64,000 nucleotides of DNA from Prauserella flavalba (GCF_003202235.1 NZ_MASU01000007.1:248001-312000), one strand, 5' to 3'; positions 9,251 to 49,066 are shown, numbered from the stretch's first letter. Numbers and translations are program-made. Notes: generated by a model from the sequence alone, not told the origin.

Positions 9251-9400
9251 GTCTCTCCCTCTGCCGTGGCCGAACCGGACCATCCAGCCAGGGCGGGGCA
9301 ACGCGGAAACGATCATCCGCGGAACGAGACGTGACGACGCGACCAACTTCGCCGCCGTCGGCACGGGCGAGAAGCGGGCAGCCGTGATGCCTCACGCGCC

Positions 9401-9425
9401 CGCAGTGAAGGCCACCTTCACTGCG
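9401..9425. repeat. half-length palindrome (GTGAAGG type) downstream of rbfA
   Basis: CGCAGTGAAGG and CCTTCACTGCG form an 11-bp perfect stem around CCA. It lies 29 bases after the rbfA stop, so it may act as the terminator of the nusA-infB operon. It equals one half of the 53-bp palindromes at 16277 and 35264. Nothing else is evident in the 203-bp gap 9251-9453. Confidence 0.75.
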
Positions 9426-9453
9426 CGGCGGCCCGGGAGCGAGGCGGGGCTCG

Positions 9454-9906
9454 CTACTCGTCGTCGGGGTTCTCCTCGCGGGGGGCACGGTAGGGGTCGG
9501 CCTCGCCCGCGTGCTTCGCGCCGGTCGCCTGGCGCGCGACCTCGGCATCGGCCTCCCGCGCCCTGGCCAGCAGCTCGTCGATGTGCCGGGCGTCGGCGGG
9601 CACGTTGTCGGGGACGAACGTCAGGGTCGGCGTGTAGCGCACACCGGTGCCCTGCCCGACCTTGGTCCGCAGGACACCGCGGGCGGACTCCAGCGCCGCC
9701 GCGGCACCGGCGAAGTCCGGCGCGGAGTCCAGGTTCTCGCCGAGCACCGTGTAGTAGACGGTGGCGTCCCTCAGGTCACCGGTGATCTTGGCGTCGGTGA
9801 CGGTCACGTTGCCGAGCCGAGGGTCCTTGACCTCGTGCTCGAGCGCGGACGCGACGATCTGCGCGATCCGCTTGGCCAGCCTCCGTGCGCGAGCCTGATC
9901 GGCCAC
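9454..9906 (-). CDS. rbfA: 30S ribosome-binding factor A
   Basis: Late 30S maturation factor that binds the 16S rRNA 5' domain through a KH-like fold and is needed at low temperature. The 150-residue product has the family core with [22 protein letters not shown] followed by [23 protein letters not shown]. The C-terminal 30 residues are acidic and disordered-looking. A longer reading frame exists, but the GTG at 9906 is chosen because AAGGGGG lies eight bases upstream and homologues begin near [13 protein letters not shown]. It is the last gene of the rimP-nusA-infB operon here. Confidence 0.95.
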
Positions 9907-9940
9907 GACGCACCCCCTTACTCGTTTCGCAAACCAGCCA

Positions 9941-10237
9941 CTAGTCGTCATCCGGGCCGAGCAGCCGGCGGCGGGCCGACAGCAACTCCAGCTCGGGCCG
10001 TGCCGCGACGAAGCGTTCACACGCGTCGAGCACGTCTCTCACATGCTCGCCGTCCGCAGCCACGACGGCCACCCCGACCAGCGCACGCCGGTGGAGATCG
10101 AGGTGACCCGCCTCGGCCACGGACACGTCGAAGCGCTTGCGCACGTCGGCGAGCAGCGGCCGCACGGCGGACCGCTTCTGCTTCAGCGACCGGACGTCGC
10201 CGAGCAGCACATCAAGTTCGAGGGAGCCCACGAACAC
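9941..10237 (-). CDS. DUF503 (YlxP-like) family protein
   Basis: A 98-residue cytoplasmic protein that opens with [22 protein letters not shown], the hallmark of DUF503/YlxP. Members sit between infB and rbfA in many Gram-positive genomes and are suspected of a role in ribosome or translation biology, without a firmly established function. The start is GTG with AAGGGTG upstream. Gaps of 70 bases to infB and 34 bases to rbfA suggest a single operon. Confidence 0.85.
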
Positions 10238-10307
10238 CGGTCGTCACCCTTCGCACGAGAGACCGCTGGGCGGGGACTTCCGCCCCCGCCCAGCCGGCCC
10301 GTCTACG

Positions 10308-13157
10308 TCACTCGCGCGGCTTCTCGCGCTGCTCGTAGGTCTCGATCACGTCGTCGACCTTGATGTCCGAGAACTTGCCGAGCGTCAGACCGCACTCGTA
10401 GCCCTCGCGGACCTCCACCACGTCGTCCTTGAACCGGCGCAGCGAGTTGACCGGCAGGTCCTGGGCGACCACGACGTTGTCGCGGAGCAGGCGCGCCTTG
10501 GCGTTGCGCCTGATCTGGCCCGAGACGACGAGGCAACCGGCGATCGTGCCGTGCTTGGAGGATTTGAAGACCTCGCGGACCTCTGCCCTGCCGAGCTCGA
10601 CCTCCTCGTACTCCGGCTTGAGCATGCCCTTGAGGGCCTGCTCGATCTCCTCGATCGCCTGGTAGATCACCGTGTAGTACCGGACGTCGACGCCCTCGCG
10701 GGTGGCCCGCTCGGTCGCCTTGCCCTGTGCCCGCACGTTGAACCCGAGGACGATCGCGTCGGAGGCCGTCGCCAGGTCGATGTCGCTCTCGGTGACGCCA
10801 CCGACGCCGCGGTGGACCACGTTGAGCTCGACCTCGTCGCCCACGTCGATCTGCATGAGCGACGCCTCGAGGGCCTCGACGGTACCCGAGTTGTCACCCT
10901 TGATGATCAGGTTGAGGGTGTTGGTCTCCTTCAGCGCGGAGTCCAGGTCCTCCAGGCTGACGCGCTTGCGCTTGGCCGCGTTCTCCGCGTTGCGGATGCG
11001 GGCCTGGCGGCGCTCGGCGATCTGCCGGGCCACCCGGTCCTCCTCCACCACGAGGAACGTGTCACCCGCGCGCGGCACCGACGTGAAGCCGATGACCTGC
11101 ACCGGACGCGACGGCGTCGCCTCGGTGACGTCGCGGTTGTACTCGTCGACCATGCGGCGCACGCGGCCGTAGGCGTCGCCCGCGACCACGGAGTCGCCCA
11201 TGCGCAGCGTGCCGCGCTGGACCAGCACCGTCGCCACCGGACCGCGCCCGCGGTCGAGGTGTGCCTCGATCGCGACACCCTGGGCCTCCATGTCCGGATT
11301 GGCCCGGAGGTCCAGCGCCGCGTCCGCCGTCAGCAGGATCGCCTCGAGCAGCCCGTCGATGTTGATGTTCTCGCGAGCCGAGATGTCGACGAACATCGTG
11401 TCGCCGCCGTACTCCTCGGCGACGAGGTTGTACTCGGTGAGCTGCTGCCGGATCTTCTGAGGGTTCGCACCCTCCTTGTCGATCTTGTTGACCGCGACCA
11501 CGATCGGCGCCTTGGCGGCCTGTGCGTGGTTGATGGCCTCCACCGTCTGCGGCATGACGCCGTCGTCGGCGGCGACCACGATCACCGCGATGTCGGTGGC
11601 CTGCGCACCACGGGCACGCATGGCGGTGAACGCCTCGTGACCAGGGGTGTCGATGAAGGTGATGAGCCGGGGGTCGCCCTCCAGCTCGGTCTCCACCTGG
11701 TAGGCACCGATGTGCTGGGTGATGCCACCGGCCTCGCCCTCGTGGACCTTCGTCTTCCGGATCGTGTCCAGCAGGCGGGTCTTACCGTGGTCGACGTGAC
11801 CCATGACGGTCACGACCGGCGGCCGGATCTGCAGGTCCTCCTCGTCACCGGCGTCCTCGCCGTAGGTGATGTCGAAGGCCTCGAGCAGCTCGCGGTCCTC
11901 CTCCTCGGGGCTGACCACCTGGACGTTGTAGTTCATCTCCGTGCCGAGCAGCTCGAGCACGTCCTCGGAGACGGACTGGGTCGCGGTGACCATCTCGCCG
12001 AGGTGGAACAGCACCTGCACCAGCGAGGCCGGGTTGGCGTCGATCTTCTCCGCGAAGTCGGTCAGCGAGGCACCCCGCGGCAGCCGGATCGTCTCGCCGT
12101 TGCCCTTGGGCAGGCGGACGCCGCCGACGCTCGGCGCCTGCATGTTCTCCATGTACTCCTGGCGCTTCTGCCGCTTCGACTTGCGGCCCTTGCGCGAGGG
12201 ACCACCGGGACGGCCGAACGCACCGGCCGCGCCACCGCGGCCACCGGGACCGCCACGGCCACCGGGGCCGCCGCGGAAGCCGCCGCCACCGCCGCCGGCG
12301 GGAGCGCCACCGGGGCCGCCGCGGAAGCCGCCGCCACCGCCGCCACCGCCACGGAAGCCGCCGCCACCGCCGCCACCGCCGCGGGGCCCGCCACGGCCGG
12401 CACCGGCGCCACCGCCGGGTCCGCCACGGCCACCGGGGCCACCACGGCCACCGGGACCGCCCGCGGGACGGGCGGGACGGGTCGGCATCATGCCGGGGTT
12501 CGGGCGCGGCGGCATGTTGCCCGGGCTCGGCCGGTTGCCACCGGGAGCACCGCCACGCGGGCCGCCCGCCGGGCGGTCGCCGCCCGGACGCGGGCCACGC
12601 TCACCCTGCTGGCCTCCACCGGGACGCGGCGGAGCCGGGCGCGGAGCCGGCGAACCGGAGCCGACGCCGAACGGGTTGTTGCCCACCCTGGGCGGCCTCG
12701 GGCCGGGCTTCGGACCGGGCTTGGGGCCCTGCGGCTTCGGCGGAACGACCGAGCCACCGGAGGGCTGCTGCTGTTGCTGGGACTGCTCCTGCTTGGGCGG
12801 AGCCGCCTTCGCCGCCGGGGCCTGCTCGGCCGGGCGCGGGGCCGGAGGCTTCGGGCCCGGCTTGGGACCCGGCTTCGGGGCCGGGGGGCCGGGGCGCGCC
12901 TGCTGCTGCGACTGCGGCGCGGACGGCTTCGCGGTGGGCGCGGAGCCGTTTCCACCGGGAGCGGACGACCGCCCACCGCGGCCGCCCCTGCCTTCCTTGG
13001 CGGCGAACGCGTCGCGCAGCCGACGGGCGACGGGCGCCTCGACGGTGGACGACGCGGACTTCACGAACTCGCCCTGCTCCTTCAGCTTGGCGAGTACTTC
13101 CTTGCTCGTGACACCGAGCTCTTTCGCGAGCTCATGCACGCGGGCCTTGCCTGCCAC
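10308..13157 (-). CDS. infB: translation initiation factor IF-2
   Basis: GTPase that delivers initiator tRNA to the 30S P-site and promotes subunit joining. The 949-residue protein has an IF2 N-terminal helical domain (residues 1-50), then a very long Pro-rich and Gly/Arg-rich linker to about residue 345, then the conserved core. The G1 motif GHVDHGKT is at residues 453-460, with the switch region GGITQHIG, the G3 motif DTPGHEAF and the G4 motif NKID following. Domains II, III and the fMet-tRNA-binding C-terminal domain complete it. The start is GTG at 13157, with GGAGA upstream. Length and linker are typical of actinobacteria. Confidence 0.97.
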
Positions 13158-35373: not shown

Positions 35374-36453
35374 GTGGATCTTCCCGTGCGGCCGCCCGTC
35401 AAGCCGATGCTCGCGACACTCGTGCGCGAGCTGCCGACCGGGCCGGGGCTGGTCTACGAGCCGAAGTGGGACGGTTTCCGCTGCATCGTGTTCCGCGACG
35501 GCGCCGAGGTGGAGCTGGGCTCGCGCAACGACCGGCCGCTGACCCGGTACTTCCCCGAGCTGGCCGGGCTACTCGCCGAGGCGCTGCCGCCCCGCTGCGT
35601 CGTGGACGGCGAGATCGTGATCGTCACCGAGGCGGGGCTGGACTTCGACGCGCTGCAGCTGCGCCTGCACCCCGCGGCGTCGCGGGTGCGCAAGCTCGCA
35701 GGGGAGACCCCGGCGAGCTTCGTGGCGTTCGACCTGCTCGCGCTCGGTGACCGGGACCTCACGGGCGAGCCGTTCGCCGAGCGGCGGCGGCTGCTGGAGG
35801 ACATCCTCGACACCGCGCAGGGCCGCGTGCACCTCACGCCGCTGACCGCCGACCCGGACGTGGCGAGGGACTGGTTCACCCGCTTCGAGGGCGCGGGTTT
35901 CGACGGCGTGATGGTCAAGTCGACCGACGTGGCCTACGAACAGGACCGCCGCGTGATGTGGAAGGTCAAGCACGAGCGCACGGCCGACTGCGTGGTGGCG
36001 GGCTTCCGCTGGCACAAGGACGGCAAGGGCGTGGGCTCGCTGCTGCTCGGCCTTTTCGACGACGAGGGCACGCTGCACCACGTGGGCGTCGCGAGCGGGT
36101 TCTCCGTGGCGCGGCGCACGGAGCTCGTCACCGAGCTGGAGCCCCTGCGCGAGAACGCGCTCGCCGACCACCCCTGGCGCGAGTGGGCGGCCGCGCACGC
36201 CGAGGCGGGTGGGCGCATGCCGGGCGGGCTGAGCCGGTGGAGCGCGGGCAAGGACCTGTCGTGGGAGCCGCTGCGCACCGAACTGGTCGCCGAGGTGCGC
36301 TACGAGCATCTGCAGGCGGGCCGCTTCCGCCACGGCGGCAGGCTCGTGCGGTTCCGGCCGGACCGCACACCGGAGTCGTGCACCTACGCCCAGCTGGAGG
36401 AGGTGCCGCCCGCGGAGCTGGCGACCCTGTTCGAGGAGGTGGCGGGCCGGTGA
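35374..36453 (+). CDS. ATP-dependent DNA ligase (LigC/LigD-ligase type)
   Basis: A 359-residue minimal ATP-dependent ligase. The adenylation lysine is K31 in YEPKWDGFRC (motif I). Other nucleotidyltransferase motifs follow: VVDGEIVIV, FDLLALGDRDL, DGVMVKSTDVAYE, and WKVKHERTADCVVAG (motif V). The OB-fold domain completes the protein from about residue 215. It is the stand-alone ligase module used in non-homologous end joining or gap repair, separate from the NAD-dependent replicative ligase. Its stop overlaps the start of the polymerase-domain gene as GTGA, so the two are co-translated. Confidence 0.88.
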   Translation: MDLPVRPPVKPMLATLVRELPTGPGLVYEPKWDGFRCIVFRDGAEVELGSRNDRPLTRYFPELAGLLAEALPPRCVVDGEIVIVTEAGLDFDALQLRLHPAASRVRKLAGETPASFVAFDLLALGDRDLTGEPFAERRRLLEDILDTAQGRVHLTPLTADPDVARDWFTRFEGAGFDGVMVKSTDVAYEQDRRVMWKVKHERTADCVVAGFRWHKDGKGVGSLLLGLFDDEGTLHHVGVASGFSVARRTELVTELEPLRENALADHPWREWAAAHAEAGGRMPGGLSRWSAGKDLSWEPLRTELVAEVRYEHLQAGRFRHGGRLVRFRPDRTPESCTYAQLEEVPPAELATLFEEVAGR

Positions 36454-37454
36454 GCGAGGCGGTGACGCTCGACGTCGACGGCACTGAGGTGACGGTGTCC
36501 AGTCCGGACAAGGTGTTCTTCGCCGAGCGTGGCGAGACGAAACTGGACCTGGTGCGCTACTACCAGGCGGTGGCGGGCCCGCTGCTGGCCACGCTCGGCG
36601 GCAGGCCGCTGCTGATGGAGCGCTACCCGCAGGGAGCGGGCGGCAAGTCGTGGTTCCAGAAACGGGTGCCGAAGTCAGTGCCGGACTGGCTGCGCACCAC
36701 CGTGGTGTCCACCCCGAACGGCACCACGAGCGACGCGCTGGTGGCGGCCGACCTCGCGCACGTCCTGTGGGCGGTGAACCTGGGCTGCCTCGGGTTCCAC
36801 GTCTGGCCCTACCACGCCGACCGGCCCGAGGTGACCGACGAGCTGCGCATCGACCTGGACCCCTCCCCCGGCGTGACGTTCGACCAGGTGCGCGAGGCCG
36901 CGGTGCTGACGAGGGAACTGCTCGGCACGCTCGGCATCGAGCCGCACCTGAAGACCACGGGCTCGCGCGGGCTGCACCTCTACGTGGCGCTGGAACCGCG
37001 CTGGGACAGCTACGAGGTGCGGGCCGCCGCGGTCGCGCTCGCGCGCGAGCTGGAACGGCGTCACCCGGCCCTCGTCACCGCGCAGTGGTGGAAGGAGGAG
37101 CGCGGCGCCCGCGTGTTCGTCGACTTCAACCAGAACGCCCCGCACAAGACGGTGTTCGGGGCGTGGTGTGTGCGGCCGAGGGCGGGCGCACAGGTGTCCA
37201 CGCCGATCGGCTGGGACGAGCTGGCGGACATCGACCCGGCCGAGCTGACGATCGCGACCGTGCCAGCTCGCGTCGCCGAGCGCGGCGACCCGTGGGCAGG
37301 CATGAGCGAGCGGCCGCAGTCGCTGGAGCCGCTGCTGGAGTGGTCGCGCCGCGACCTGGCGTCGGGCCTGATGGACGCGCCGTGGCCCCCGGTGTACCCG
37401 AAGCAGCCAGGGGAGCCGCCGAGGGTGGCGCCGAGCAGGGCGAAGCGCACCTGA
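36450..37454 (+). CDS. NHEJ polymerase domain protein (LigD PolDom-like primase-polymerase)
   Basis: A 334-residue archaeo-eukaryotic primase-type polymerase, the same module as the LigD polymerase domain. Characteristic stretches are LMERYPQGAGGKSWFQKR near residue 52, GFHVWPYHADRPEVTDELRIDLDPSPG near 113-138 with the two metal-binding aspartates, TTGSRGLHLYVAL near 170, and VFVDFNQNAPHKTVFGAW with the third aspartate near 228. It would add ribonucleotides at broken ends before ligation. The start is GTG, overlapping the ligase stop, with GAGGAGG upstream. No Ku or LigD phosphoesterase gene is in the window. Confidence 0.9.
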   Translation: MSEAVTLDVDGTEVTVSSPDKVFFAERGETKLDLVRYYQAVAGPLLATLGGRPLLMERYPQGAGGKSWFQKRVPKSVPDWLRTTVVSTPNGTTSDALVAADLAHVLWAVNLGCLGFHVWPYHADRPEVTDELRIDLDPSPGVTFDQVREAAVLTRELLGTLGIEPHLKTTGSRGLHLYVALEPRWDSYEVRAAAVALARELERRHPALVTAQWWKEERGARVFVDFNQNAPHKTVFGAWCVRPRAGAQVSTPIGWDELADIDPAELTIATVPARVAERGDPWAGMSERPQSLEPLLEWSRRDLASGLMDAPWPPVYPKQPGEPPRVAPSRAKRT

Positions 37455-38742: not shown

Positions 38743-39150
38743 TCACCTGCCCTTGTCGCGGGCCTTCGCGGTCTCGCGCTCGCTGGCCTTCTCGAGGGCG
38801 CGCACGAGCTCCGGTTTGCTCATCCTGGAGCGGCCGCTGATGCCGAGTTCCCTGGCCCGGCGGTACAGGTGCTCCTTGCTGGCGGAGGTGTCCACTCCCC
38901 CGGCGGTCGGCTTCGGGTCCTGCCCCGCGCCGCCCTCGGCCTGCGCGTCGGAAGGGCCCTGGTGCTGCTTGGGCTCCCAGCGGTCGCCGACCTTCTCGTA
39001 GGAGTGCTTGAGCGCGGCGTACGCGGTCTGGTGCGCGCGCCTGCCCTCGCCGTAGCTCTCCACGGCGGAGTCGTGTGCCTTGACCCAGGTTCGCTCCGCC
39101 TTGTCCGGAGAGCGGCGGACCGTACTCGGGACTTCCTCACGTCCAGGCAT
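38743..39150 (-). CDS. ChaB family protein with C-terminal Rho-N/SAP-like domain
   Basis: A 135-residue cytoplasmic protein. The first 60 residues match ChaB (VPSTVRRSPDKAERTWVKAHDSAVESYGEG, then KHSYEKVGDRW). A disordered linker leads to a helix-extended-loop-helix stretch at about 89-121 (SKEHLYRRARELGISGRSRMSKPELVRAL) like the Rho N-terminal or SAP nucleic-acid-binding motif. ChaB was named for cation transport regulation in E. coli, but actinobacterial forms with this DNA-binding-like tail have no assigned role. It is a short isolated gene. Confidence 0.85.
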   Translation of the reverse strand: MPGREEVPSTVRRSPDKAERTWVKAHDSAVESYGEGRRAHQTAYAALKHSYEKVGDRWEPKQHQGPSDAQAEGGAGQDPKPTAGGVDTSASKEHLYRRARELGISGRSRMSKPELVRALEKASERETAKARDKGR

Positions 39151-39222: not shown

Positions 39223-40566
39223 TTACGCCGGGTGACCGAAGTAGCGCGGATCGGCGACGGCGAGCCGGTCGGTGACGTCGGCGCGGACGGCGGCCAGCAC
39301 CGCGGGATCCGCGGGGTCGAGCGTCCCGTCCCGCAGCGCGGCCGCGAGCTCCCCCGTGCTGCCCACGCCGAGCGCGGCGAGGCGCTGGGCGTGCCGCCGC
39401 TCCTGCTCGTCGCCGAGGCGCAGCTGACGCGACACGATGCCGAGCACGTTGGCGGCGACCCTGGAGTGGAAGCTCAGCCTGCCCTCGGTGCCGGGAACCA
39501 CCTCCGAGCGCAGGAACTCGGCGACCGCGGTGACCAGTTCCCCGGCCGTGGGCCTGCCGTGCAGATCGGATGCCGGGCCCGCGACCTCTCCGGGGACCTC
39601 GCCGGGACCGGCGCCGAGCGCGAGCAGCAGGTCGTGCTCCTGCTCGCACACCCGCCTGCCCACGGCCGCGAGCTCCACCGAGCGGGTCTGCCCGCTCAGG
39701 TGCCGTTCGGCCTGGACGCGGCAGAGCACGGCCCACTTCGCGGTGCCGTAGACCTCCCACCAGCGCACGGCCTCCGGATCGGGGCGCCGCCCCGCGATCT
39801 CGGCGTAGCCGTCGAACAGCTCCTCCCGTTCCCCGAATCCGCCCACCGGCGGCGCGGTGCCGAAGCGCCACGCCTTGACGCAGAGCCAGCCGAGGTCCTC
39901 GAGCGGGTCGCCGCGGTGCACCAGTTCCCAGTCGAGCACGGCCCGTAGCCCGTCCTCGCCGACGATGAGGTTGCCGTTGCGGAAGTCCCCGTGCACCAGG
40001 GCAGCACCCGAGGAGGCGGGCCGGTTCTCGCGCAGCCAGCGCAGCGCGATCTCGACGGCGGGCAGCGGTTCGCCGGTCTCGTCGTAGCGCGCGGCGAGCC
40101 ACTCCAGCGGGTCGAAGGCGGGCAGCCCGGGCACGTCGGCCACGGGCACGCGGTGCAGCCGCGCCAGCACGTGTCCCAGTTCCTTCGCCAGCCCCGCCCT
40201 CGCCGCCGCGTACCGGGGTTCGCGCAGCAGGCGCCTGGGGATGGTCTCGCCGTCGAGGAACTCCGTGAGCACGTAGGGTACGCCCAGCACACCCCCGTCC
40301 GGGCAGTGGTCGACGAGCGCGGGCACCGGCACCCCGGCCGCGGCGGCGGCCCGCAGCACCGCGGCCTCCAGCGCCAGCTCGCCCGGCCTGGCCCGGCCCG
40401 GCGGGTCGCAGCGCAGCACGAGTCGCACCGGCGTGCCGCCGCGAGGCCGGGCCTCGAACACCCACGTCTGCTTGCTGGCGCCGCCGCTGAGCCGGCGCGG
40501 CCCCGCGATCTCGACCGGGGTCGCCCATAGCTCACCGAGCCGGGCGCCGAGCCGTTCCGCGTCCAT
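39223..40566 (-). CDS. APH-like kinase fused to a DUF6285 domain (candidate 4-hydroxyacyl-CoA kinase)
   Basis: A 447-residue protein. The N-terminal 330 residues are an aminoglycoside-phosphotransferase-like kinase: RRLSGGASKQTWVFEA is the glycine-rich loop, ALVHGDFRNGNLIV the catalytic loop with its aspartate, and LDWELVHRGDPLEDLGW the metal-binding segment. The last 105 residues (from DLHGRPTAGELVTAVAEFLRSEVV) resemble DUF6285, the LvaB family. In Pseudomonas, LvaA (kinase) and LvaB phosphorylate 4-hydroxyacyl-CoA during levulinate catabolism; here both appear fused. It directly follows, and overlaps by one base, the acyl-CoA dehydrogenase gene, which echoes animal ACAD10/11. Substrate specificity is inferred. 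Confidence 0.75.
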   Translation of the reverse strand: MDAERLGARLGELWATPVEIAGPRRLSGGASKQTWVFEARPRGGTPVRLVLRCDPPGRARPGELALEAAVLRAAAAAGVPVPALVDHCPDGGVLGVPYVLTEFLDGETIPRRLLREPRYAAARAGLAKELGHVLARLHRVPVADVPGLPAFDPLEWLAARYDETGEPLPAVEIALRWLRENRPASSGAALVHGDFRNGNLIVGEDGLRAVLDWELVHRGDPLEDLGWLCVKAWRFGTAPPVGGFGEREELFDGYAEIAGRRPDPEAVRWWEVYGTAKWAVLCRVQAERHLSGQTRSVELAAVGRRVCEQEHDLLLALGAGPGEVPGEVAGPASDLHGRPTAGELVTAVAEFLRSEVVPGTEGRLSFHSRVAANVLGIVSRQLRLGDEQERRHAQRLAALGVGSTGELAAALRDGTLDPADPAVLAAVRADVTDRLAVADPRYFGHPA

Positions 40567-41843
40567 CACCGCTCACCGGTCGCGTGTGGACGCTGCCTGT
40601 GCGGGCCGGCGAAGCCGAAGAGGTACCCGGCGACCTTGCGCAGCTGGATCTCCTCGGAGCCCTCCGTGATGCGGTACCGCCGGTGGTGCCGGTAGAGATG
40701 CTCGAACGGCGTGTGCCTCGTGTAGCCCAGGCCGCCGTGCACCTGCATGGCCCGGTCGGCGGCGTCGCACGCGAGCCGGTTGGCGCGGTAGTTGCACATC
40801 GAGACCTTGTCGCTGAGCAGCAGCTGCTCGGTGCGGTCGAGCTCCCACGCGGTCTTGCGGACGAGGGTGCGAACCAGCTCGGCCTCGGTGTGCAGCTCCA
40901 CGAGCGGCCACTGGATCGCCTGCCGGGTCGCGAGCGGGCTGCCGAACGCGACGCGCTCGCGGGCGTAGGCGACGCTGCGGTCGATGCAGTACTGCGCGAC
41001 GCCGACCCCGGACGCGGCCTGGCGGATGCGGTTCTCGTGCACGAAATGCTGGGCGAGCGCGAGCCCTGCGCCGACCTCGCCGAACACGGCCGAGCCGGGC
41101 ACCCGCACGTCGCGCAGGGTCACCTCGGCGTGGTCGGTGGGCATGTTGAACGTCCACCAGTGGAAGTCCACGGAGAAGCCCTCGGCGTCAGTGGGCACGA
41201 TGAACGCGGTGATCCCCCTGGCGTCGCCGGGGTCGCCGGAGGTGCGGGCGAAGATCACGTCGTGGGTCGCCGAATGCAGTCCGGAGTTGAACCGCTTGCG
41301 TCCGTTGAGGATCCAGTCGCCGCCGTCGGCGACGGCCGTGGTCTCCAGCCACGTGGCGTCGCTCCCGTGGTCCGGTTCGGTCAGTCCGAACGCGACCCGC
41401 CGGGTGCGGGTGAGCATTCCCTCCACGAACTCCTCGCGCTGTTCGCGCGTACCGAACTCCAGGAACATGTGCACGAACGGGAAGTTGCCCACGACCGACG
41501 ATTCGTTCTGCAGGTCGTTGTGCAGGCCGAGGCCCTTCGCGGCGAGGTGCTCGCGGATCACCGCCATGTCGAGGTTCGAGCCGCCGCTGCCGCCCGCCTC
41601 TTCCGGCAGCCCGTAGCGCAGCCAGCCCGCGCGGTCGGCGCGGTCGAACATCTCGTCCAGCAGCGCCTCCCATTCCGGGCGCGGCGTGCCGCCGTTCTCG
41701 AAGTCGGTGCGCGAGAACTCCCTGCGGTGGTCGAAGAACCGTTCGTTGTCGTCCTGCTCCTGCAGCGGGCGGATCTCGGCCTCGATGAAATCGTCCAATG
41801 CCGACAGCCGTTCACGGAGGCCGGCGGGCAGTTCGAAGTCCAT
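40566..41843 (-). CDS. acyl-CoA dehydrogenase family protein (LvaC/ACAD11-like context)
   Basis: A 425-residue flavoprotein of the acyl-CoA dehydrogenase family. The FAD-binding LTEPDHGSDATWLETTA lies at about 154-170, and the catalytic-base region TEGSEEIQLRK is near residue 394, with glutamate retained. Family members normally introduce the 2,3 double bond. When encoded beside an APH-type kinase, as in lva operons and in animal ACAD10/11, they act on 4-phosphoacyl-CoA and remove phosphate. AAGGGAG precedes the ATG. Its stop is shared with the kinase start (TGATG), so coupling is likely. It is divergent from a crotonase-SDR pair. Confidence 0.85.
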   Translation of the reverse strand: MDFELPAGLRERLSALDDFIEAEIRPLQEQDDNERFFDHRREFSRTDFENGGTPRPEWEALLDEMFDRADRAGWLRYGLPEEAGGSGGSNLDMAVIREHLAAKGLGLHNDLQNESSVVGNFPFVHMFLEFGTREQREEFVEGMLTRTRRVAFGLTEPDHGSDATWLETTAVADGGDWILNGRKRFNSGLHSATHDVIFARTSGDPGDARGITAFIVPTDAEGFSVDFHWWTFNMPTDHAEVTLRDVRVPGSAVFGEVGAGLALAQHFVHENRIRQAASGVGVAQYCIDRSVAYARERVAFGSPLATRQAIQWPLVELHTEAELVRTLVRKTAWELDRTEQLLLSDKVSMCNYRANRLACDAADRAMQVHGGLGYTRHTPFEHLYRHHRRYRITEGSEEIQLRKVAGYLFGFAGPHRQRPHATGER

Positions 41844-41943
41844 GCACGCTCCCTTTACTGAATTGACACGTCTTGCCCTCGCGACCGGAGCGGGGCCAGA
41901 CTACGAGCGAAAGCCTTGGCACAGCGACGTTCTGGAGGGCACC

Positions 41944-42780
41944 GTGACCGATCCGGCCGAGCAGCGCGTGAGCTGCACCGTCACCGAAGGAGTCGCCGAC
42001 GTGCGGCTCGACCGGGAGGCGAAGCTGAACGCGCTCGATCCCGCGATGGCGTCGGCGCTCATCACCACGGGCGAGCGGCTGCGGCGCGACGCCGGCGTGC
42101 GCGCGGTCGTGGTGTCGGGCAACGGCCGCGCGTTCTGCGCCGGGCTGGACATGAGCTCGTTCCAGGCCATGGCCGTCGACGAACCGGTCCGCCTGGCGCA
42201 TCACGACGAGCATCCCTACACCGGTCCCGCGCGGGCGACGGGACAGCGCGCCGCGTACGTCTGGGCCGAGCTGCCGGTGCCCGTGATCGCCGCGGTGCAC
42301 GGCGTGGCGTTCGGCGGCGGCCTGCAGATCGCCCTCGGCGCCGATATCCGCGTGGTGGCCCCGGATGCGCGGCTCTCGGTGATGGAGATCCGCTGGGGAC
42401 TCGTCCCCGACATGACCGGCTCGCAGCTGCTGCCGGAGCTGGTGGGCCGCGACGTCGCCAAGGAGCTGACGTTCACGGGCCGGATCGTGACCGGCGAGGA
42501 GGCCGCGCGGATCGGGCTGGCGACGAAGGTCGCCGACGACCCGAGGAAGGTCGCGCTCGAGCTGGCCGCGGAGATCGCAGGGAAGAACCCGGACGCGATC
42601 CGGGGAGCCAAGCGGTTGCTCGACCTCGCGGGCCGGACGGAGCTGGCCGACGGCTTCGCCGCCGAGCAGCGCGAGATCGGCGCGCTGATCGGCAGCCCCA
42701 ACCAGGTGGAGGCGGTGCGGGGGAACCTGGAGGAACGGGCGCCGGTGTTCACCGACTCCGGCGAGCAGGCGCGCGCGTGA
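41944..42780 (+). CDS. crotonase / enoyl-CoA hydratase family protein
   Basis: A 278-residue crotonase-fold protein. Substrate and oxyanion-hole regions are GNGRAFCAGLDMSSF (about 60-74) and HGVAFGGGLQIALGADIRV (about 119-137). The glutamates at the usual hydratase positions are not obvious, so isomerase or hydrolase activity is possible. The GTG at 41944 is preferred over a much longer frame because GGAGGGC lies upstream. Its stop overlaps the following SDR as GTGA. Together with the divergent kinase-dehydrogenase pair it probably forms one pathway. Confidence 0.85.
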   Translation: MTDPAEQRVSCTVTEGVADVRLDREAKLNALDPAMASALITTGERLRRDAGVRAVVVSGNGRAFCAGLDMSSFQAMAVDEPVRLAHHDEHPYTGPARATGQRAAYVWAELPVPVIAAVHGVAFGGGLQIALGADIRVVAPDARLSVMEIRWGLVPDMTGSQLLPELVGRDVAKELTFTGRIVTGEEAARIGLATKVADDPRKVALELAAEIAGKNPDAIRGAKRLLDLAGRTELADGFAAEQREIGALIGSPNQVEAVRGNLEERAPVFTDSGEQARA

Positions 42781-43541
42781 ATCCCTTCGACCTCACCGGG
42801 CACGTCGCGCTGGTCACCGGCGGCAACTCCGGCATCGGGCTCGCGATGGCCGACGCGCTCGCGGCGGCCGGGGCGGGCGTGTGTGTCTGGGGCACCAACA
42901 CCGAGCGCAACGCGGAGGCGGCCGAACGGCTGGGCCGCCACGGCGGCGACGTGCTCGCGGTGCCCTGCGACGTCGGCGACGAGGAGCAGGCGGACGCGGC
43001 CATGCGGCGGGTCACCGGCCACTTCGGACGGCTGGACTCGTGCTTCGTCAACGCGGGTGTCACCGGCGTGCCGGCGAAGCTGGTCGACACGGAGCTGAGC
43101 GAGTTCCGGCGGGTGACGCGCGTCGACCTCGACGGCGCGTTCCTGACGCTGCGCGCCGCGGCGCGGGTGCTCGTCGCTCAGGGCGAGGGCGGCAGCCTGG
43201 TCGCCACGTCGAGCGTGGCTGCCAGGCAGGGTCAGCCGCGCGGGCACGCCTACGCCGGGGCGAAGGGCGGGCTGATCTCGATGGTCAACGGCATCGCGGT
43301 GGAGCTGGCCCGGCACGGCATCAGGGCCAACAGCATCCTCCCCGGCTGGGTCAGCACGCCACTGGCCGACCCCGCACTGCGGTCGGAGGGCTTCCAGCGG
43401 CGGGTGCTGCCGCGCATGCCGGTCGGGCGCTGGGGCCGTCCCGGCGACTTCGGCTCCCTGGCCGTGTACCTGGCGAGCCCGGCGAGCGCGTTCCACACCG
43501 CCGACAGCATCACCGTCGACGGTGGGTACCTCGCCTTCTGA
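42777..43541 (+). CDS. SDR family oxidoreductase
   Basis: A 254-residue classical short-chain dehydrogenase. Cofactor motif TGGNSGIG is at 14-21, NAG at about 91, and the catalytic Ser and YxxxK in TSSVAARQGQPRGHAYAGAKGG (about 143-164). The C-terminus ends in the usual DGGYLAF. It is coupled to the crotonase gene by a four-base overlap and could oxidise the hydroxyacyl-CoA produced there, or reduce a 4-oxoacyl-CoA as LvaD does in levulinate catabolism. The latter is an inference from context. Confidence 0.87.
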   Translation: MNPFDLTGHVALVTGGNSGIGLAMADALAAAGAGVCVWGTNTERNAEAAERLGRHGGDVLAVPCDVGDEEQADAAMRRVTGHFGRLDSCFVNAGVTGVPAKLVDTELSEFRRVTRVDLDGAFLTLRAAARVLVAQGEGGSLVATSSVAARQGQPRGHAYAGAKGGLISMVNGIAVELARHGIRANSILPGWVSTPLADPALRSEGFQRRVLPRMPVGRWGRPGDFGSLAVYLASPASAFHTADSITVDGGYLAF

Positions 43542-43546
43542 GCGCG

Positions 43547-44428
43547 TCAGTACTCCTCGGGCCTCGCGGGCCAGCGAGGCGCTGTGGACGGACAGTCCTC
43601 GCTGACCCGCAAGGGAAAATCGGGCTTGCGCTTCTCTAGGAACGCCGTCACGCCCTCGGCGGCGTCGGCCGCGGCACCGAGCTCGTACAGCGCGCGGGAG
43701 TCGTGGCGGTGCGCCTCCCACGGCGTCGGGGAGCCGAGCATGCCCCACAGCAGCTGCCTGGCCACCGCCACCGACACGGCGGAGGTGTTGTCGGCGATCT
43801 CCGCCGCGAGCCTGCGCGCCTCGGTCAGCAGGTCGGCGTCGGGGACGACGCGCGAGACGAGCCCGCCCGCCTTCGCCTCCTCCGCGTCGAACACGCGGCC
43901 CGTCGCCACCCACTCCATCGCCTGCGAGATGCCGACGATCCGGGGCAGGAACCACGTCGACGCGGCCTCGGGCACGATGCCGCGGCGGGTGAAGACGAAC
44001 CCGAAACGCGCGGACTCCGCGGCGATCCGGACGTCCATCGGCAGCGTCATGGTCACCCCGACGCCCACGGCGGGACCGTTGACCGCGGCGATCACCGGTT
44101 TGCGGCTCGCGGCGATCCTCAGTGACACGGCACCGCCGGAATCCCGTGGCACGCCGTCGATCTCGCCGAGGAGCTCTCGGACGTCGTGGTCCTTCTTTCC
44201 CGCGTTGAACGTGTCCGCGCCCCGGCCGAGGTCGGCCCCGGCGCAGAAGCCGCGGCCCGCGCCGGTGACGAGGACCACGCGCACGCCGTCGTCGGCGTCG
44301 ATGCGGTCGAAGGCGTCGATCAGCTCCCGCGCCATCGTGATCGTGTAGGCGTTGAGCCGCTCGGGCCGGTTCAAGGTCACGGTAGCGATGCCGTCGGTGA
44401 CGTCGTAGTCGATCTCGCGGTAGGTCAA
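43547..44428 (-). CDS. enoyl-CoA hydratase/isomerase family protein
   Basis: A 293-residue crotonase. LVTGAGRGFCAGADLGRGADTF (about 67-88) and AAVNGPAVGVGVTMTLPMDVRIAA (about 122-145) form the oxyanion hole; EAASTWFLPRIVG near 163 carries a glutamate at the usual catalytic site. The start is TTG at 44428, chosen because GGAG lies six bases upstream; the frame extends further back into the preceding gene without a better site. It is the last gene of the minus-strand synthetase-dehydrogenase-hydratase operon, and converges with the SDR with five bases between stops. Confidence 0.85.
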   Translation of the reverse strand: MTYREIDYDVTDGIATVTLNRPERLNAYTITMARELIDAFDRIDADDGVRVVLVTGAGRGFCAGADLGRGADTFNAGKKDHDVRELLGEIDGVPRDSGGAVSLRIAASRKPVIAAVNGPAVGVGVTMTLPMDVRIAAESARFGFVFTRRGIVPEAASTWFLPRIVGISQAMEWVATGRVFDAEEAKAGGLVSRVVPDADLLTEARRLAAEIADNTSAVSVAVARQLLWGMLGSPTPWEAHRHDSRALYELGAAADAAEGVTAFLEKRKPDFPLRVSEDCPSTAPRWPARPEEY

Positions 44429-44442
44429 CGCGGGCTCCCTGG

Positions 44443-45552
44443 TCAGAGGGCGAGGCGGTCGGCGAGGCGGGCCCGCTGCTCCCCGGGCGCGCCCAGCAGG
44501 AGCTCGCTCGTCTTGGCCCGCTTGTAGTACAGGTGCGCGTCGTGCTCCCAGGTGTAGCCGACGCCGCCGTGCAGCTGCACACCCGCCGCGGCGGAGTCGA
44601 AGTAGCCGGGCCCGAGCACCACCTGTGCCAGCGCGGCGGCCACGGGCAGCGCTTCGGGGTCGTGGTCGGCGGTCCACGCCGCGTGCCGCACCACCGAGCG
44701 CGCCTGTTCCGCGGTGGAGTACAGGTCCGCGCAGGCGTGCTTCACGGCCTGGTAGGAGCCGATTGGCCTGCCGAACTGCACCCGCACCTTCGCGTAGTCC
44801 ACAGTGGTCTCCAGCACGTGATCGAGCCCGCCGAGCTGCTCGGCGGCGAGCGCGACGGCGGCGCGGTCGCGCACGGCCTCCAGCACCGCGGCGGGATCGG
44901 CGACGGCCACGGCCCGCGCGGGCGTGCCCGCGAAGTCGAGGCGGGCGAGCCCCCGCGTGGGGTCGAGGGTGCGCAGGCGCGTCGTGCGCAGCCCGGTGGC
45001 CTCGCCGGACACGGCGAACCAGCCCGGCCCCTCGGGTGTGCCCGCGTACACGAGCACCAGATGCGCGGCGTCGCCGGAGACCACGAAGGACGCGTGCCCG
45101 TCCAGCGCGAAGACGCCGTTACGGCGCGTCGCGGTGATGCTCTGCGCACTGGAGCCCCAGGTGCCGTCGTCGCCCGCCACCGCGACCGCGGCGACCAGCT
45201 CCCCGGTGGCGAGCTGCGGCAGCAGCTCGGCCGACAGCTCCGCGTCGGCCAGTGCCAGCACGGTGTCGACGGCGAGCACGGCCGAGGCGAGGAACGGCAC
45301 GGGTGCGAGCGCCCTGCCCAGCTCCTCCAGCACCACGGATCTTTCGGTGTGGCCCGCGCCGGATCCGCCGCGGTCCTCCGGGATCACCAGACCGGCCACA
45401 CCGAGCGCCGCGAGCCGGGTCCACAGTGCACGGTCCCAGCCCTCGTCGCCCTCCATGACCTCGCGCATCCTGCTCGACGGCGCGTGGTCCTCGAGCAGCT
45501 CCCGTACGGCCGAGCGCAGCTGTCGCTGTTCGGAGTTCAGCACCAGTTCCAT
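44443..45552 (-). CDS. acyl-CoA dehydrogenase, small partner subunit
   Basis: A 369-residue acyl-CoA dehydrogenase-like protein. The C-terminal region with QFGRPIGSYQAVKHACADLY and GVQLHGGVGYTWEHDAHLYYKRA is typical. The usual catalytic-base glutamate motif is not seen. It begins 12 bases after a larger dehydrogenase gene, the layout of the heteromeric alpha2-beta2 dehydrogenases that act on CoA esters with bulky ring systems in actinobacteria. On that view this is the partner subunit. GAGGGGG precedes the ATG. Confidence 0.85.
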   Translation of the reverse strand: MELVLNSEQRQLRSAVRELLEDHAPSSRMREVMEGDEGWDRALWTRLAALGVAGLVIPEDRGGSGAGHTERSVVLEELGRALAPVPFLASAVLAVDTVLALADAELSAELLPQLATGELVAAVAVAGDDGTWGSSAQSITATRRNGVFALDGHASFVVSGDAAHLVLVYAGTPEGPGWFAVSGEATGLRTTRLRTLDPTRGLARLDFAGTPARAVAVADPAAVLEAVRDRAAVALAAEQLGGLDHVLETTVDYAKVRVQFGRPIGSYQAVKHACADLYSTAEQARSVVRHAAWTADHDPEALPVAAALAQVVLGPGYFDSAAAGVQLHGGVGYTWEHDAHLYYKRAKTSELLLGAPGEQRARLADRLAL

Positions 45553-45563
45553 CGAGTCCCCCT

Positions 45564-46754
45564 CTACGCCTTCGCCTGCGTGCCGACGCGCAGCTCGCGG
45601 AACGGGACGTCCCGGTCGACCTGTGGTTCCTTCGGCAGACCGAGCACGCGCTCGCCGATGATGCCGCGCTGGATCTGGTTGGTGCCGCCCGCGATGCTCG
45701 ACGCGGGCGTGGCGTTGATCGCGAGGGCCAGTTCCTCGGCTGCGGGGTCGCCCTCGTCCCACGCCGCGGCCCGCACGCCCGCGATCAGGCCCGCCACGCG
45801 CACGGCCCGCCACAGCAGCTCCGCACCGGCGAGCTTCGCGACCGAACCGCGGGCGCCGGGCGGGGAGCCCGCGTCGGCCTCCTGCCGCAGGCGCGTGTTG
45901 AACAGCGACAGCGCCCGCTCCGCGGCGTAGAGCGCGGCCAACTCCGTGCGCACGACCGGGTCCCGCGCACGGCCCAGCCGCCGCGCCAGGTCCGCGAGGT
46001 TGGCGTAGGTGAGCGGGTCGTAGCGGCGGCGCACCGAGCCGCCGATCGACACGCGCTCGTGCCCGAGCATCGTCACCGCGGCGAACCAGCCCGCGTCCAC
46101 CTCGCCGAGCACGGCGCCGGCGGGCAGCCGCACGTTGTCGAAGAACACCTCGTTGAACGGCGCCTGCCCGGTCATGTCCTTCAGTGGCCGCACGGTCACG
46201 CCCGGCGCGTGCATGTCCACGATGAACATCGTGATGCCCTTGTGCTTCGGCACGTCCGGGTTGGTGCGCGCCAGGAGGGCGCCGAAGTCGGCGTGCTGCG
46301 CCCCGGACGTCCACACCTTCTGCCCGTTGACGACCCAGGTTTCCCCGTCGCGTACGGCGCGGGTCTGCAGGCTCGCGACGTCGGATCCCGCGCCGGGCTC
46401 GGAGAAGAGCTGGCACCAGATCTCCTCGCCGCGCAGCAGCGGCCGGACGTAGCGGGCCTTCTGCTCGTGGGTGCCGAGGTCGACGATCGTCGGCCCGCAC
46501 ATGCCCATGCCGATCATGAACACGTCGGTCGGCAGGTCGTAGGCAGCGGCCTCCTCGTCGAACACCTGCTGGTCGGCGGCCGTGCGGCCCTGCCCGCCGT
46601 ACTCGGCGGGCCACGTCAGGCCCGCGAGCCCGGCGTCGTGCAGCGCGGCCTGGAACCGTTTGGCGGTCGCGATCCGCTCCTCGGCGGACGCGTTCTCGAC
46701 GGTCTTCGGTACGTTCTCCGCGAGCCAGTCGCGCACCGTGTCCCGGAACGACAT
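45564..46754 (-). CDS. acyl-CoA dehydrogenase, large catalytic subunit candidate
   Basis: A 396-residue acyl-CoA dehydrogenase. FAD-contact region FSEPGAGSDVASLQTRA is at 118-134. Glutamate 233 in MLGHERVSIGG occupies the position of the catalytic base in isovaleryl-CoA and steroid side-chain dehydrogenases, while the medium-chain-type site reads AGGTNQIQ (355-362) with glycine instead of glutamate. This pattern, next to a second dehydrogenase gene, fits a heterotetrameric enzyme for a branched or polycyclic acyl-CoA. It is ten bases after the acyl-CoA synthetase gene in the same operon. Confidence 0.87.
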   Translation of the reverse strand: MSFRDTVRDWLAENVPKTVENASAEERIATAKRFQAALHDAGLAGLTWPAEYGGQGRTAADQQVFDEEAAAYDLPTDVFMIGMGMCGPTIVDLGTHEQKARYVRPLLRGEEIWCQLFSEPGAGSDVASLQTRAVRDGETWVVNGQKVWTSGAQHADFGALLARTNPDVPKHKGITMFIVDMHAPGVTVRPLKDMTGQAPFNEVFFDNVRLPAGAVLGEVDAGWFAAVTMLGHERVSIGGSVRRRYDPLTYANLADLARRLGRARDPVVRTELAALYAAERALSLFNTRLRQEADAGSPPGARGSVAKLAGAELLWRAVRVAGLIAGVRAAAWDEGDPAAEELALAINATPASSIAGGTNQIQRGIIGERVLGLPKEPQVDRDVPFRELRVGTQAKA

Positions 46755-46764
46755 GCGTCTCCTC

Positions 46765-48309
46765 TCAGCGCGCGGTGGTGGCCGCGTACCGTTCCTTGAG
46801 CTTGCCCTTGACGAGCTTGCCGGTGGGTGTGCGCGGCAGCTCGTCGACGAAGTCCACGCTGCGCGGCGCCTTGTAGTGCGCGATGCGCTCCCGCACGTAG
46901 GCCAGCAGCTCCCCGGCGAGCTCCGGTCCCGGTTCCACTGTGGACGACGGCTGCACGACGGCCTTGACCGCCTCGCCCATCTCCGGATCGGGCACGCCGA
47001 TCACGGCGACGTCGTCCACGGCGGGATGCAGCGCGAGGACGTTCTCCACCTCCTGCGGGTAGACGTTGACCCCGCCGGAGATGATCATGAACGCTTTGCG
47101 GTCGGTGAGGAACAGGTAGCCCTCCTCGTCCAGGTAGCCGACGTCGCCGTTGGTCGCCCACGTCGGATGCGCGGGATGCTGCGCCTCGCGGGTCTTCTCG
47201 GGCGCGTTGTGGTAGCTGAACGGCACCTCGTCGCGTTCGAAGTAGACGGTGCCGATCTCGCCGGGAGGAAGCTCGTCGCCGTTGTCGGCGCACACGTGCA
47301 GGATGCCGAGCCCGGCCCTGCCGACGGAACCCGGCTTGGCGAGCCACTCCTGCGGGGAGATGAACGTCAGCCCCGCACCCTCGGTGGAGCTGTAGTACTC
47401 GTAGAGGATCGGCCCCCACCAGTCCATCATTGCGCGCTTGACCTCCTCCGGGCACGGCGCCGCGGCGTGCACGGCGACCCGGTGGCTCGACAGGTCGTAG
47501 CGCGTCCGCACGTCCTCGGGCAGCTTGAGCATGCGCACGAACATCGTGGGCACCCACTGGCTGTGCGTGACGCGGTAGGTCTGGATCGCGCGCAGCGCGG
47601 CCTCGGGCTCGAAGCGCTCCATCATCACGAGCGTGCCGCCGACCGCGTGCACGCACGCGCCGAACCGCAGCGGCGCGGCGTGGTAGACGGGCGCGGGTGA
47701 GAGGTAGACGATGCCGGAGTCGAACCCGTACATCGCCTCCAGCAGCGGGCGCAGCAGGTCGCCCGGCTCGTCGATCTGCCGTTCCGGCAGCGCGACGCGG
47801 ATGCCCTTGGGCCGCCCGGTGGTGCCCGACGAGTACAGCATGTCCGCGCCGGCGGGCTGGTCGCCGGGCACGTCGGCCGACGCCGCGGCGAGCACGGCCT
47901 CGTAGTCGTCGAAGCCGGGGACCTCGCCGCCGTAGGCGAGCTTGACCGCGACGCCGGGCACGAGGTCCGCGACCTCGCGGGGCAGCTCGCCGAGCGCGGC
48001 GGAGACGACGAGCGCCTTCGCGCCGGAGTCCTCGACGATGTAGGCGACCTCGGACGGCGAGAGGTGGTTGTTCACCGCGGCGATATAGCAGCCGGAGCGC
48101 ACGACGGCCCAGTACACCTCGTAGGCGCGCATCGTGTTGTCGGTGAGCAGCGCGACGGTGTCCCCGGGCCGGAAACCCCTGTCGCGCAAGGCGTTCGCGA
48201 GCCGCGCGGAGCGTTCGTCGAGCTCGCGGTAGGTCAGCGTCTCCCCGGATCCCGCCATGATCACGGCGGGGTGGTCGGGCCGTACGGCCGCGTGGGTGCC
48301 CGGATACAT
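46765..48309 (-). CDS. acyl-CoA synthetase (FadD-type)
   Basis: A 514-residue adenylate-forming ligase. [19 protein letters not shown] is the ATP-loop motif (about 157-175), [12 protein letters not shown] the central motif, [18 protein letters not shown] the hinge, and [14 protein letters not shown] the C-terminal catalytic lysine. The long insertion after the P-loop ([21 protein letters not shown]) is seen in some actinobacterial FadD proteins. It activates the substrate for the two downstream dehydrogenases and hydratase. The ATG at 48309 has GAGGAGG upstream. A 20-bp palindrome in its leader is a probable TetR site. Confidence 0.88.
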
Positions 48310-48365
48310 ACGGCTCCTCCTCGAACCGGCGTGTTCCTCTTCGCAGCCTGTCAGCCCCGGACCCG

Positions 48366-48385
48366 AACAGTCAATGCCGACTGTT
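48366..48385. promoter_or_regulatory. candidate TetR operator 1, AACAGTC-N6-GACTGTT
   Basis: A perfect 7-bp inverted repeat, AACAGTC (48366-48372) and GACTGTT (48379-48385), with a six-base spacer. It lies in the divergent space between the synthetase operon and the TetR gene, 57 bases from the former and 31 from the latter. A near copy lies at 49052. Confidence 0.6.
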
Positions 48386-48403
48386 TTTCGCGCCCTCGGT
48401 GGG

Positions 48404-48409
48404 TAGGCT
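48404..48409 (+). promoter_or_regulatory. candidate -10 element TAGGCT for a leaderless transcript
   Basis: TAGGCT fits TANNNT and ends six bases before the ATG at 48416. This favours that start over a GTG two codons upstream, which would overlap the element. Confidence 0.55.
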
Positions 48410-48415
48410 GTGCCG

Positions 48416-49066
48416 ATGGCCCGACCCGTGTCCACGACTCCGCGCAGCCGCAAGGAGCGCACCGAGGACAGCCGCGCGCTGATCCTCGACGCCGCCGTGG
48501 ACTGCCTCGTCGAGCTGGGCTACGCGGGCGCGTCGACACTGGCGATCCAGGCGAAGGCGGGCGTGTCGCGGGGCAGGCTGCTGCACCATTTCCCCTCCCG
48601 CGACGGGCTGCTGGTCGCCGCGGCGCAGCACCTCGCGACGGGCAGGCTCGCCAAGACCGAGGAGCGCGTCGCCGAGGCGCTCACCGGTGAGCCCGAGGGC
48701 CCCGCGCGCGTCGAGCGGTGCATCGAGCTGCTGTGGGTGACCTTCCACGAGCCGCACTTCTGGGCGGCGATGGAGCTGTGGACGGCGGCGCGCACCAACC
48801 CCGCGCTCGCGGAGGCGCTGCGGCCCGCGGAACGGACGCTGCGCGACGCGATCCGCGGCGTGGCCGACCGGCTCTGGGGTCCCGAGGTGTGCGCCCACCC
48901 GCGCTACGACGAGCTGCGCGAGCTGCTGTTCACCAGCATGCGCGGTGCCGCGATGCCGTATGCGTTCGAAGAACGCTCCCCCGCCACCGACAAGCACGTC
49001 GCGATCTGGAAGTCCGTCGCGCGCACGCTGCTCTTCGGCGACGGCTCCGCTAACAGTCAGGGTTGA
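48416..49066 (+). CDS. TetR family transcriptional regulator
   Basis: A 216-residue TetR protein. The N-terminal helix-turn-helix domain is at about 14-60 ([42 protein letters not shown] is typical). The ligand domain is helical and of usual length. It sits between two acyl-CoA operons, divergent from one and reading toward the other, and each has the same palindrome near its start. It is therefore the likely local repressor of both, with an acyl-CoA or free acid as plausible ligand. Operator 2 overlaps its last codons. Confidence 0.88.

Follow-up and report, generated by a model that had tools for sequence, protein, structure and literature searches.

A kinase-DUF6285 fusion gene and a partner acyl-CoA dehydrogenase in Prauserella flavalba: a probable one-chain LvaAB-type system

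The kinase-DUF6285 fusion

Prauserella flavalba is a soil actinobacterium. In a 64,000-nucleotide stretch of its genome (NZ_MASU01000007.1:248001-312000, hereafter the window, with positions counted from its first letter), we examined a gene that joins an APH-type kinase to a DUF6285 domain, together with the adjoining acyl-CoA dehydrogenase (ACAD) gene, whose product we call ACAD-X. The features at this locus are the following:

39223-40566, minus strand: kinase-DUF6285 fusion gene, 447 residues, putative one-chain counterpart of LvaA plus LvaB (Pfam, single continuous frame, all-fused clade, AlphaFold2 model)
39796-40497, minus strand: APH kinase domain, residues 24-257 (Pfam; catalytic H192/D194/N199/D212/E214; identity to LvaA)
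39241-39495, minus strand: DUF6285 (LvaB-type) domain, residues 358-442, predicted all-helical (Pfam and AlphaFold2 model)
40566-41843, minus strand: ACAD-X, acyl-CoA dehydrogenase whose catalytic position holds Glu394 and which has the YRHHRRYRITEG motif, not of the LvaC type

The initial annotation, made from the DNA alone, had proposed that a kinase and a C-terminal DUF6285 domain share one polypeptide, and had advised a profile search of the C terminus. A single open frame of 447 amino acids indeed encodes both. The Pfam DUF6285 model (PF19802, cut-off of 28.1 bits) is covered in its entirety by residues 358-442 (90.4 bits, E = 1.2e-25), and APH (PF01636) matches residues 24-257 (132.5 bits, E = 2.8e-38). 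The motif HGDFRNGN...LDWE holds the catalytic residues of the kinase, all of them intact, i.e., H192, D194, N199, D212, and E214. An AlphaFold2 model of the protein (mean predicted local distance difference test score of 91, predicted template modeling score of 0.90) has an all-helical C-terminal domain. Because the kinase domain filled the match list in a fold search with this model, no separate DUF6285 match was returned, and we make no claim of a new fold for that domain. The P. flavalba genome contains a single DUF6285 copy and, of 120 family genomes sampled, 26 contain the domain, nearly always in one long frame with a kinase. Given this single copy and its recurrence, the joining of an APH-type kinase and DUF6285 in one polypeptide is not due to chance; the fusion is real.

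A reference for both halves of the protein is the complete lva operon on the Pseudomonas aeruginosa plasmid p12939-PER (locus L166, 3750-12930). This operon encodes a regulator (annotated PrpR), a kinase, LvaB (annotated "4-hydroxypentanoyl-CoA kinase subunit LvaB"), an ACAD, a short-chain dehydrogenase/reductase (SDR), an acyl-CoA synthetase, a DUF485 protein, and a symporter. Its LvaB itself matches PF19802 (85 bits, E = 4.8e-24) and, on the strength of this annotated operon, DUF6285 is LvaB, as had been suggested. The plasmid LvaA and the window kinase share 38% identity over 320 amino acids (E = 1.5e-52). A tblastn search of plasmids with the DUF6285 domain alone gave 4 records and was too insensitive. 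LvaB and LvaA both act in the production of 4-phosphovaleryl-CoA (PMC6692424, PMC9399607) and, in the work of Rand et al. 2017 as related in PMC6692424, a pulldown showed binding of LvaB to LvaA, and growth on levulinate needed each of lvaA, lvaB, and lvaC. Judging from these matches, the fusion protein is a one-chain LvaAB. In other bacteria, this kinase has two parts and readies hydroxylated fatty acids for catabolism.

Phylogenetic analysis agrees with this assignment. The tree covers 110 kinases and comes from a quick search, with support from the Shimodaira-Hasegawa-like approximate likelihood ratio test (SH-aLRT) only and no bootstrap. In it, an LvaA-side clade of 89 rows is split at SH-aLRT 100 from an ACAD10/11-type clade of 21 rows. 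DUF6285 is fused or adjacent in 85 of the 89 LvaA-side rows. The ACAD10/11-type clade, which has no DUF6285 of its own, includes the six other ACAD-linked kinases of the P. flavalba genome and two rows tagged as split, which are second kinases close to another kinase's DUF6285. The window kinase falls within an all-fused clade of 37 rows (SH-aLRT 100), mostly from Pseudonocardiaceae plus Williamsia and one Streptomyces; on this tree it groups with LvaA and not with the ACAD10/11-type kinases, its position relative to LvaA inside the LvaA-side clade being weakly supported. The kinship to APH and LvaA expected at the outset thus holds in profile, identity, and tree placement. Automatic annotation might instead name the protein a kinase for resistance to aminoglycosides or other antibiotics, for which the family name APH is the sole argument; none of the NCBIfam resistance models comes anywhere near its cut-off, the gene context is catabolic, and the kinase lies in the LvaA clade, which makes this reading exceedingly improbable.

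Because other kinase-DUF6285 fusions (L146, L150, and L213/L214/L270) are placed outside the 37-row clade, the fusion probably arose more than once; the starred tree branches alone do not force this. In Mycobacteriaceae, ACAD-X, kinase, and DUF6285 are found in the same order as separate genes. In Thermus, the gene immediately after the kinase/DUF6285 genes belongs to the histidine phosphatase family, as does the one immediately after the kinase gene in Deinococcus (L057, L163), and such a gene is also reported in the Pseudomonas citronellolis lva cluster (PMC6692424).

ACAD-X and its dependence on the kinase

The ACAD-X gene lies upstream of the kinase gene, and its TGA stop overlaps the ATG of the kinase gene by a single base (TGATG), so that the two genes are translationally coupled. 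This coupling had been part of the initial annotation, and ACAD linkage is found in most relatives. The same annotation had taken the neighboring ACAD for an LvaC/ACAD10/11-type enzyme, a claim that does not stand. ACAD-X contains the N, middle, and C domains of the acyl-CoA dehydrogenase superfamily (Pfam), and its fold matches include 2wbi (Z of 39.7, root mean square deviation of 3.1, 384 aligned) and 6fah (Z of 39.1, root mean square deviation of 2.5, 376 aligned), with human ACAD11 heading a nearly flat match list. The LvaC/ACAD10/11 signature consists of R626, H634, R637, and D753 (PMC12440821; for the catalytic Asp, also PMC11342911), and replacing R626, H634, or R637 by alanine or leucine does the most damage to the elimination activity of ACAD11 (PMC12440821). 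At these positions (ACAD11 numbering), ACAD-X has F267, Q275, S278, and E394, i.e., none of the four signature residues. All four are present in all six other kinase-linked ACADs of P. flavalba and in those of the lva plasmid, Thermus, and Paroceanicella (hereafter R/H/R/D ACADs). In an ACAD tree, ACAD-X (16 rows, SH-aLRT 100) and the R/H/R/D ACADs (21 rows, SH-aLRT 99) form separate groups that share one superclade (SH-aLRT 99). Because the signature residues differ and the clade is separate, ACAD-X is, on alignment and tree, not LvaC. The motif YRHHRRYRITEG is invariant in 26 diverse ACAD-X proteins; according to the alignment, its residues R388 and R391 are common to LvaC, and H386, H387, and R389 are not found there.

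Two further arrangements were observed. P. flavalba loci L063, L130, L131, L132, and L133 hold the six other pairs of an APH kinase and an R/H/R/D ACAD, which are without DUF6285. In locus L071 (G031), one uninterrupted plus-strand frame at 8236-10863 connects DUF6285 to an R/H/R/D ACAD through a repetitive linker and may represent an LvaB-LvaC fusion.

ACAD-X was then followed across genomes. At a threshold of E <= 1e-120, it occurs in 23 of the 120 family genomes, and all 23 are among the 26 that contain DUF6285 (Fisher test, 1e-21, kinship ignored); in 22 of these 23, both lie within the same 18-kb stretch. A scan of contigs from all phyla matched at least 596 stretches, with at least 519 confirmed. 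Among 80 retained stretches, an APH kinase and DUF6285 were in reach in 31 (15 fused, 16 split) and were not in the other 49. These unlinked loci had been considered as a sign that ACAD-X is independent of the kinase, an idea overturned by the presence of DUF6285 elsewhere in the genome in all 22 of those tested. Wherever the genomes with unlinked ACAD-X were inspected (20/20), DUF6285 was fused to or near an LvaA-like kinase, in one case at 1.2 kb. The background frequency of DUF6285 is 26/296 in Actinomycetota and 15/200 in the phylum of Reyranella, within an overall range of 7-22%. The co-occurrence counts span Actinomycetota, Chloroflexota, Pseudomonadota, and Acidobacteriota and are not corrected for kinship. 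In every genome tested, ACAD-X occurs only alongside an LvaA/DUF6285-type kinase, a one-way dependence. Clustering of the neighbor families around ACAD-X was not used, as lineage-specific and antisense frames dominated it. Three metagenome-assembled genomes titled Bifidobacterium breve (L244, L251, L258) carry ACAD-X loci, and these titles look wrong for their content.

R/H/R/D ACADs are rarely located beside ACAD-X-associated kinases, yet they adjoin kinase-DUF6285 loci without a nearby ACAD-X in Thermus, Paroceanicella, the lva plasmid, G031, and G159. A strict rule by which DUF6285 loci without ACAD-X would always have an R/H/R/D neighbor was dropped, since several have neither nearby. This distribution, the one-way dependence on an LvaAB kinase in several phyla, and the translational coupling would all be in keeping with ACAD-X replacing LvaC on 4-phosphoacyl-CoA, with Glu394 as the base and the invariant cationic H386, H387, R388, R389, and R391 standing in for R626/H634/R637. 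The invariance of the motif, the shared superclade, and the first place of human ACAD11 in the nearly flat structural list point the same way. Such an enzyme would perhaps hand its electrons to electron transfer flavoprotein (ETF) and not back to the substrate. We regard this replacement as less likely than not, however, since Phe, Gln, and Ser occupy the sites most disruptive when mutated in ACAD11 (PMC12440821), and R388 and R391, also found in LvaC, are not special to ACAD-X. That ACAD-X represents a second ACAD kind, relying on a Glu base and a cationic motif of its own to process phosphorylated acyl-CoA from LvaAB-type kinases, is a more doubtful proposal; the enzyme would possibly be net-oxidative, with a 4-phospho-2-enoyl-CoA or 2,4-dienoyl-CoA product and electrons passed to ETF.

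Alternatively, ACAD-X could act at another point of the pathway as an ordinary alpha,beta-dehydrogenase, the phosphate being removed in trans by an LvaC/ACAD10/11-type ACAD. The canonical Glu394 and the lack of phosphate residues in ACAD-X favor this account, as do the LvaC-type ACAD relatives present in 113 of the 120 family genomes and the six R/H/R/D ACADs beside other kinases in P. flavalba. So does Actinomycetospora (L199/L201/L205), in which ACAD-X is followed by the kinase-DUF6285 fusion and then, directly downstream, by an R/H/R/D ACAD frame, so that both ACAD types flank the fusion. Nonetheless, because such ACADs are near-universal, help in trans is always possible and constitutes weak evidence, permissive and not tested, and the account leaves unexplained why so many ACAD-X loci have no linked R/H/R/D ACAD. 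On balance, we place it close to, but short of, an even chance. Given how tightly it tracks the kinase, ACAD-X may itself remove the phosphate.

Neighboring genes and proposed pathway

The genes surrounding the ACAD-X and fusion genes are the following:

41844-41943, no strand: divergent intergenic region of 100 bp from ACAD-X to the crotonase gene, with presumed promoters
41944-42780, plus strand: enoyl-CoA hydratase/crotonase (NCBIfam NF005699 above cut-off)
42777-43541, plus strand: SDR oxidoreductase, 36% identical to LvaD, which is the level of a generic SDR
43547-44437, minus strand: second enoyl-CoA hydratase (NF006109 above cut-off)
44443-45540, minus strand: acyl-CoA dehydrogenase, possible heteromeric pair with the next ACAD (5-bp gap to the hydratase gene)
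45564-46754, minus strand: acyl-CoA dehydrogenase, pimC-large-like pair member (23-bp gap)
46765-48462, minus strand: acyl-CoA ligase (AMP-binding), FadD4/PRK13390-like, exact start uncertain (10-bp gap)
48410-49066, plus strand: TetR-type regulator, divergent from the ligase

The divergent crotonase-SDR pair anticipated by the initial annotation is present, with the crotonase stop codon overlapping a GTG start of the SDR gene. Together with the operon-like run upstream, in which ligase, ACAD pair, and hydratase genes are separated by 10, 23, and 5 bp, this pair suggests the breakdown of a CoA thioester. Across 25 family loci, orthologue-level matches to the crotonase (at least 340 bits) are found in 11, the ACAD pair in 7 to 8, the SDR in 7, and the ligase in 6; in Variovorax, Cupriavidus, and Sulfitobacter, DUF6285 kinases likewise have relatives of the ligase and ACAD pair nearby. 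The ligase is 29% identical to LvaE; at E <= 1e-60, LvaE has matches at 19 ligase-like places across the genome, with better ones located elsewhere. The nearest regulator found is of the TetR type, and none of the LvaR type adjoins the module, although no search for LvaR or the LvaF/G transport genes was made across the remainder of the window. Outside this region, the window encodes a ChaB domain protein at 38743-39150 (minus strand), whose C terminus matches Rho_N weakly and below cut-off. Adjoining frames at 35374-37454 (plus strand) resemble, by reading of the translation, an ATP-dependent DNA ligase and a LigD-type polymerase.

Taken together, the fusion is likely a one-chain LvaAB-type acyl-CoA hydroxyl kinase, with ACAD-X in the same pathway and the phosphate lost via an LvaC-type ACAD in trans or via ACAD-X. 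The APH domain would transfer a phosphate from ATP to the hydroxyl of a hydroxyacyl-CoA, at C4 by analogy, with reaction, position, and substrate all inferred. The DUF6285 domain would take the role of the separate LvaB subunit, which binds the LvaA-type kinase and is needed for activity. ACAD-X, coupled to the fusion, would act in the same pathway amid the ligase, the second ACAD pair, the hydratases, and the SDR. The phosphate would be lost through an LvaC-type ACAD in trans, which we slightly prefer, or through ACAD-X itself by means of other residues, and the product would then undergo beta-oxidation.

Several observations weigh against this proposal. The dependence fails in reverse, as ACAD-X is found in 12 of 28 DUF6285 genomes and is absent from 16, and a P. 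citronellolis cluster has an LvaA homologue without LvaB (PMC6692424). Moreover, because APH-fold kinases with other substrates exist and 25-hydroxysteroid kinase ranks second when the fusion model is searched with Foldseek, the hydroxyl could be elsewhere than at C4 or not on a CoA thioester. The kinase might accordingly act on another alcohol, e.g., the tertiary alcohol of a terpenoid or steroid, with another enzyme eliminating the phosphate. The 25-hydroxysteroid kinase structures 9fsg/9ft5 hold Foldseek ranks 2 to 4, the eliminating lyase of that pathway is unknown (PMC8449060), and in the mycobacterial locus L225, CoA-transferase family III and 3-hydroxy-3-methylglutaryl-CoA (HMG-CoA)-lyase-like genes lie upstream of ACAD-X. 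However, the structural alignment with 25-hydroxysteroid kinase shows only 20% identity, further APH-fold chains (3dxp, Rv3168) appear next to it in the ranking, and the kinase sequence sides with LvaA and DUF6285, so we consider this alternative unlikely.

Comparison with known systems

In many bacteria, DUF6285, a domain of unknown function, is here tied to LvaB, a kinase subunit already known, and ACAD-X is a widespread dehydrogenase family (more than 500 stretches in one scan) that predicts an LvaAB kinase, also where the genes lie at a distance from each other. LvaAB, ACAD10/11, and DUF6285 as a family are already known. In the literature searched, whose coverage omits many journals, no mention of DUF6285 was found, nor any description of an LvaA-LvaB fusion, the latter being weak evidence; within this partial coverage, neither the fused form nor the partnership with ACAD-X appears to have been described. 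Removal of 4-hydroxy acids by phosphorylation in mammals was assigned only recently (2024-2025 papers), and a bacterial version without the residues essential in ACAD11 therefore makes the mechanism directly testable.

The locus resembles the Pseudomonas lva operon in that its APH kinase, like LvaA, lies in the LvaA-side clade, DUF6285 is the partner, and the ACAD, SDR, and acyl-CoA ligase families are clustered. It differs in having one polypeptide instead of separate LvaA and LvaB, an ACAD that is not of the LvaC type, another gene order, a nearby TetR regulator instead of a sigma-54-type activator, and an additional ACAD pair and two hydratases. The split loci of Mycobacteriaceae share the tandem order of ACAD-X, kinase, and DUF6285, but there DUF6285 is a separate gene, with the HMG-CoA-lyase-like and CoA-transferase genes upstream in L225. 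The 25-hydroxysteroid kinase of Sterolibacterium likewise has an APH fold and phosphorylates an alcohol for later elimination, whereas its substrate is a steroid and not a CoA thioester, and it is monomeric with no DUF6285 partner reported. Finally, mammalian ACAD10 and ACAD11, which are known to act on 4-hydroxyacyl-CoA, also couple a kinase with an ACAD, but in these proteins the two are fused and no DUF6285 is described; bacterial kinases of the ACAD10/11 type make up the other clade of the kinase tree, and the window ACAD does not carry the R/H/R/D residues.

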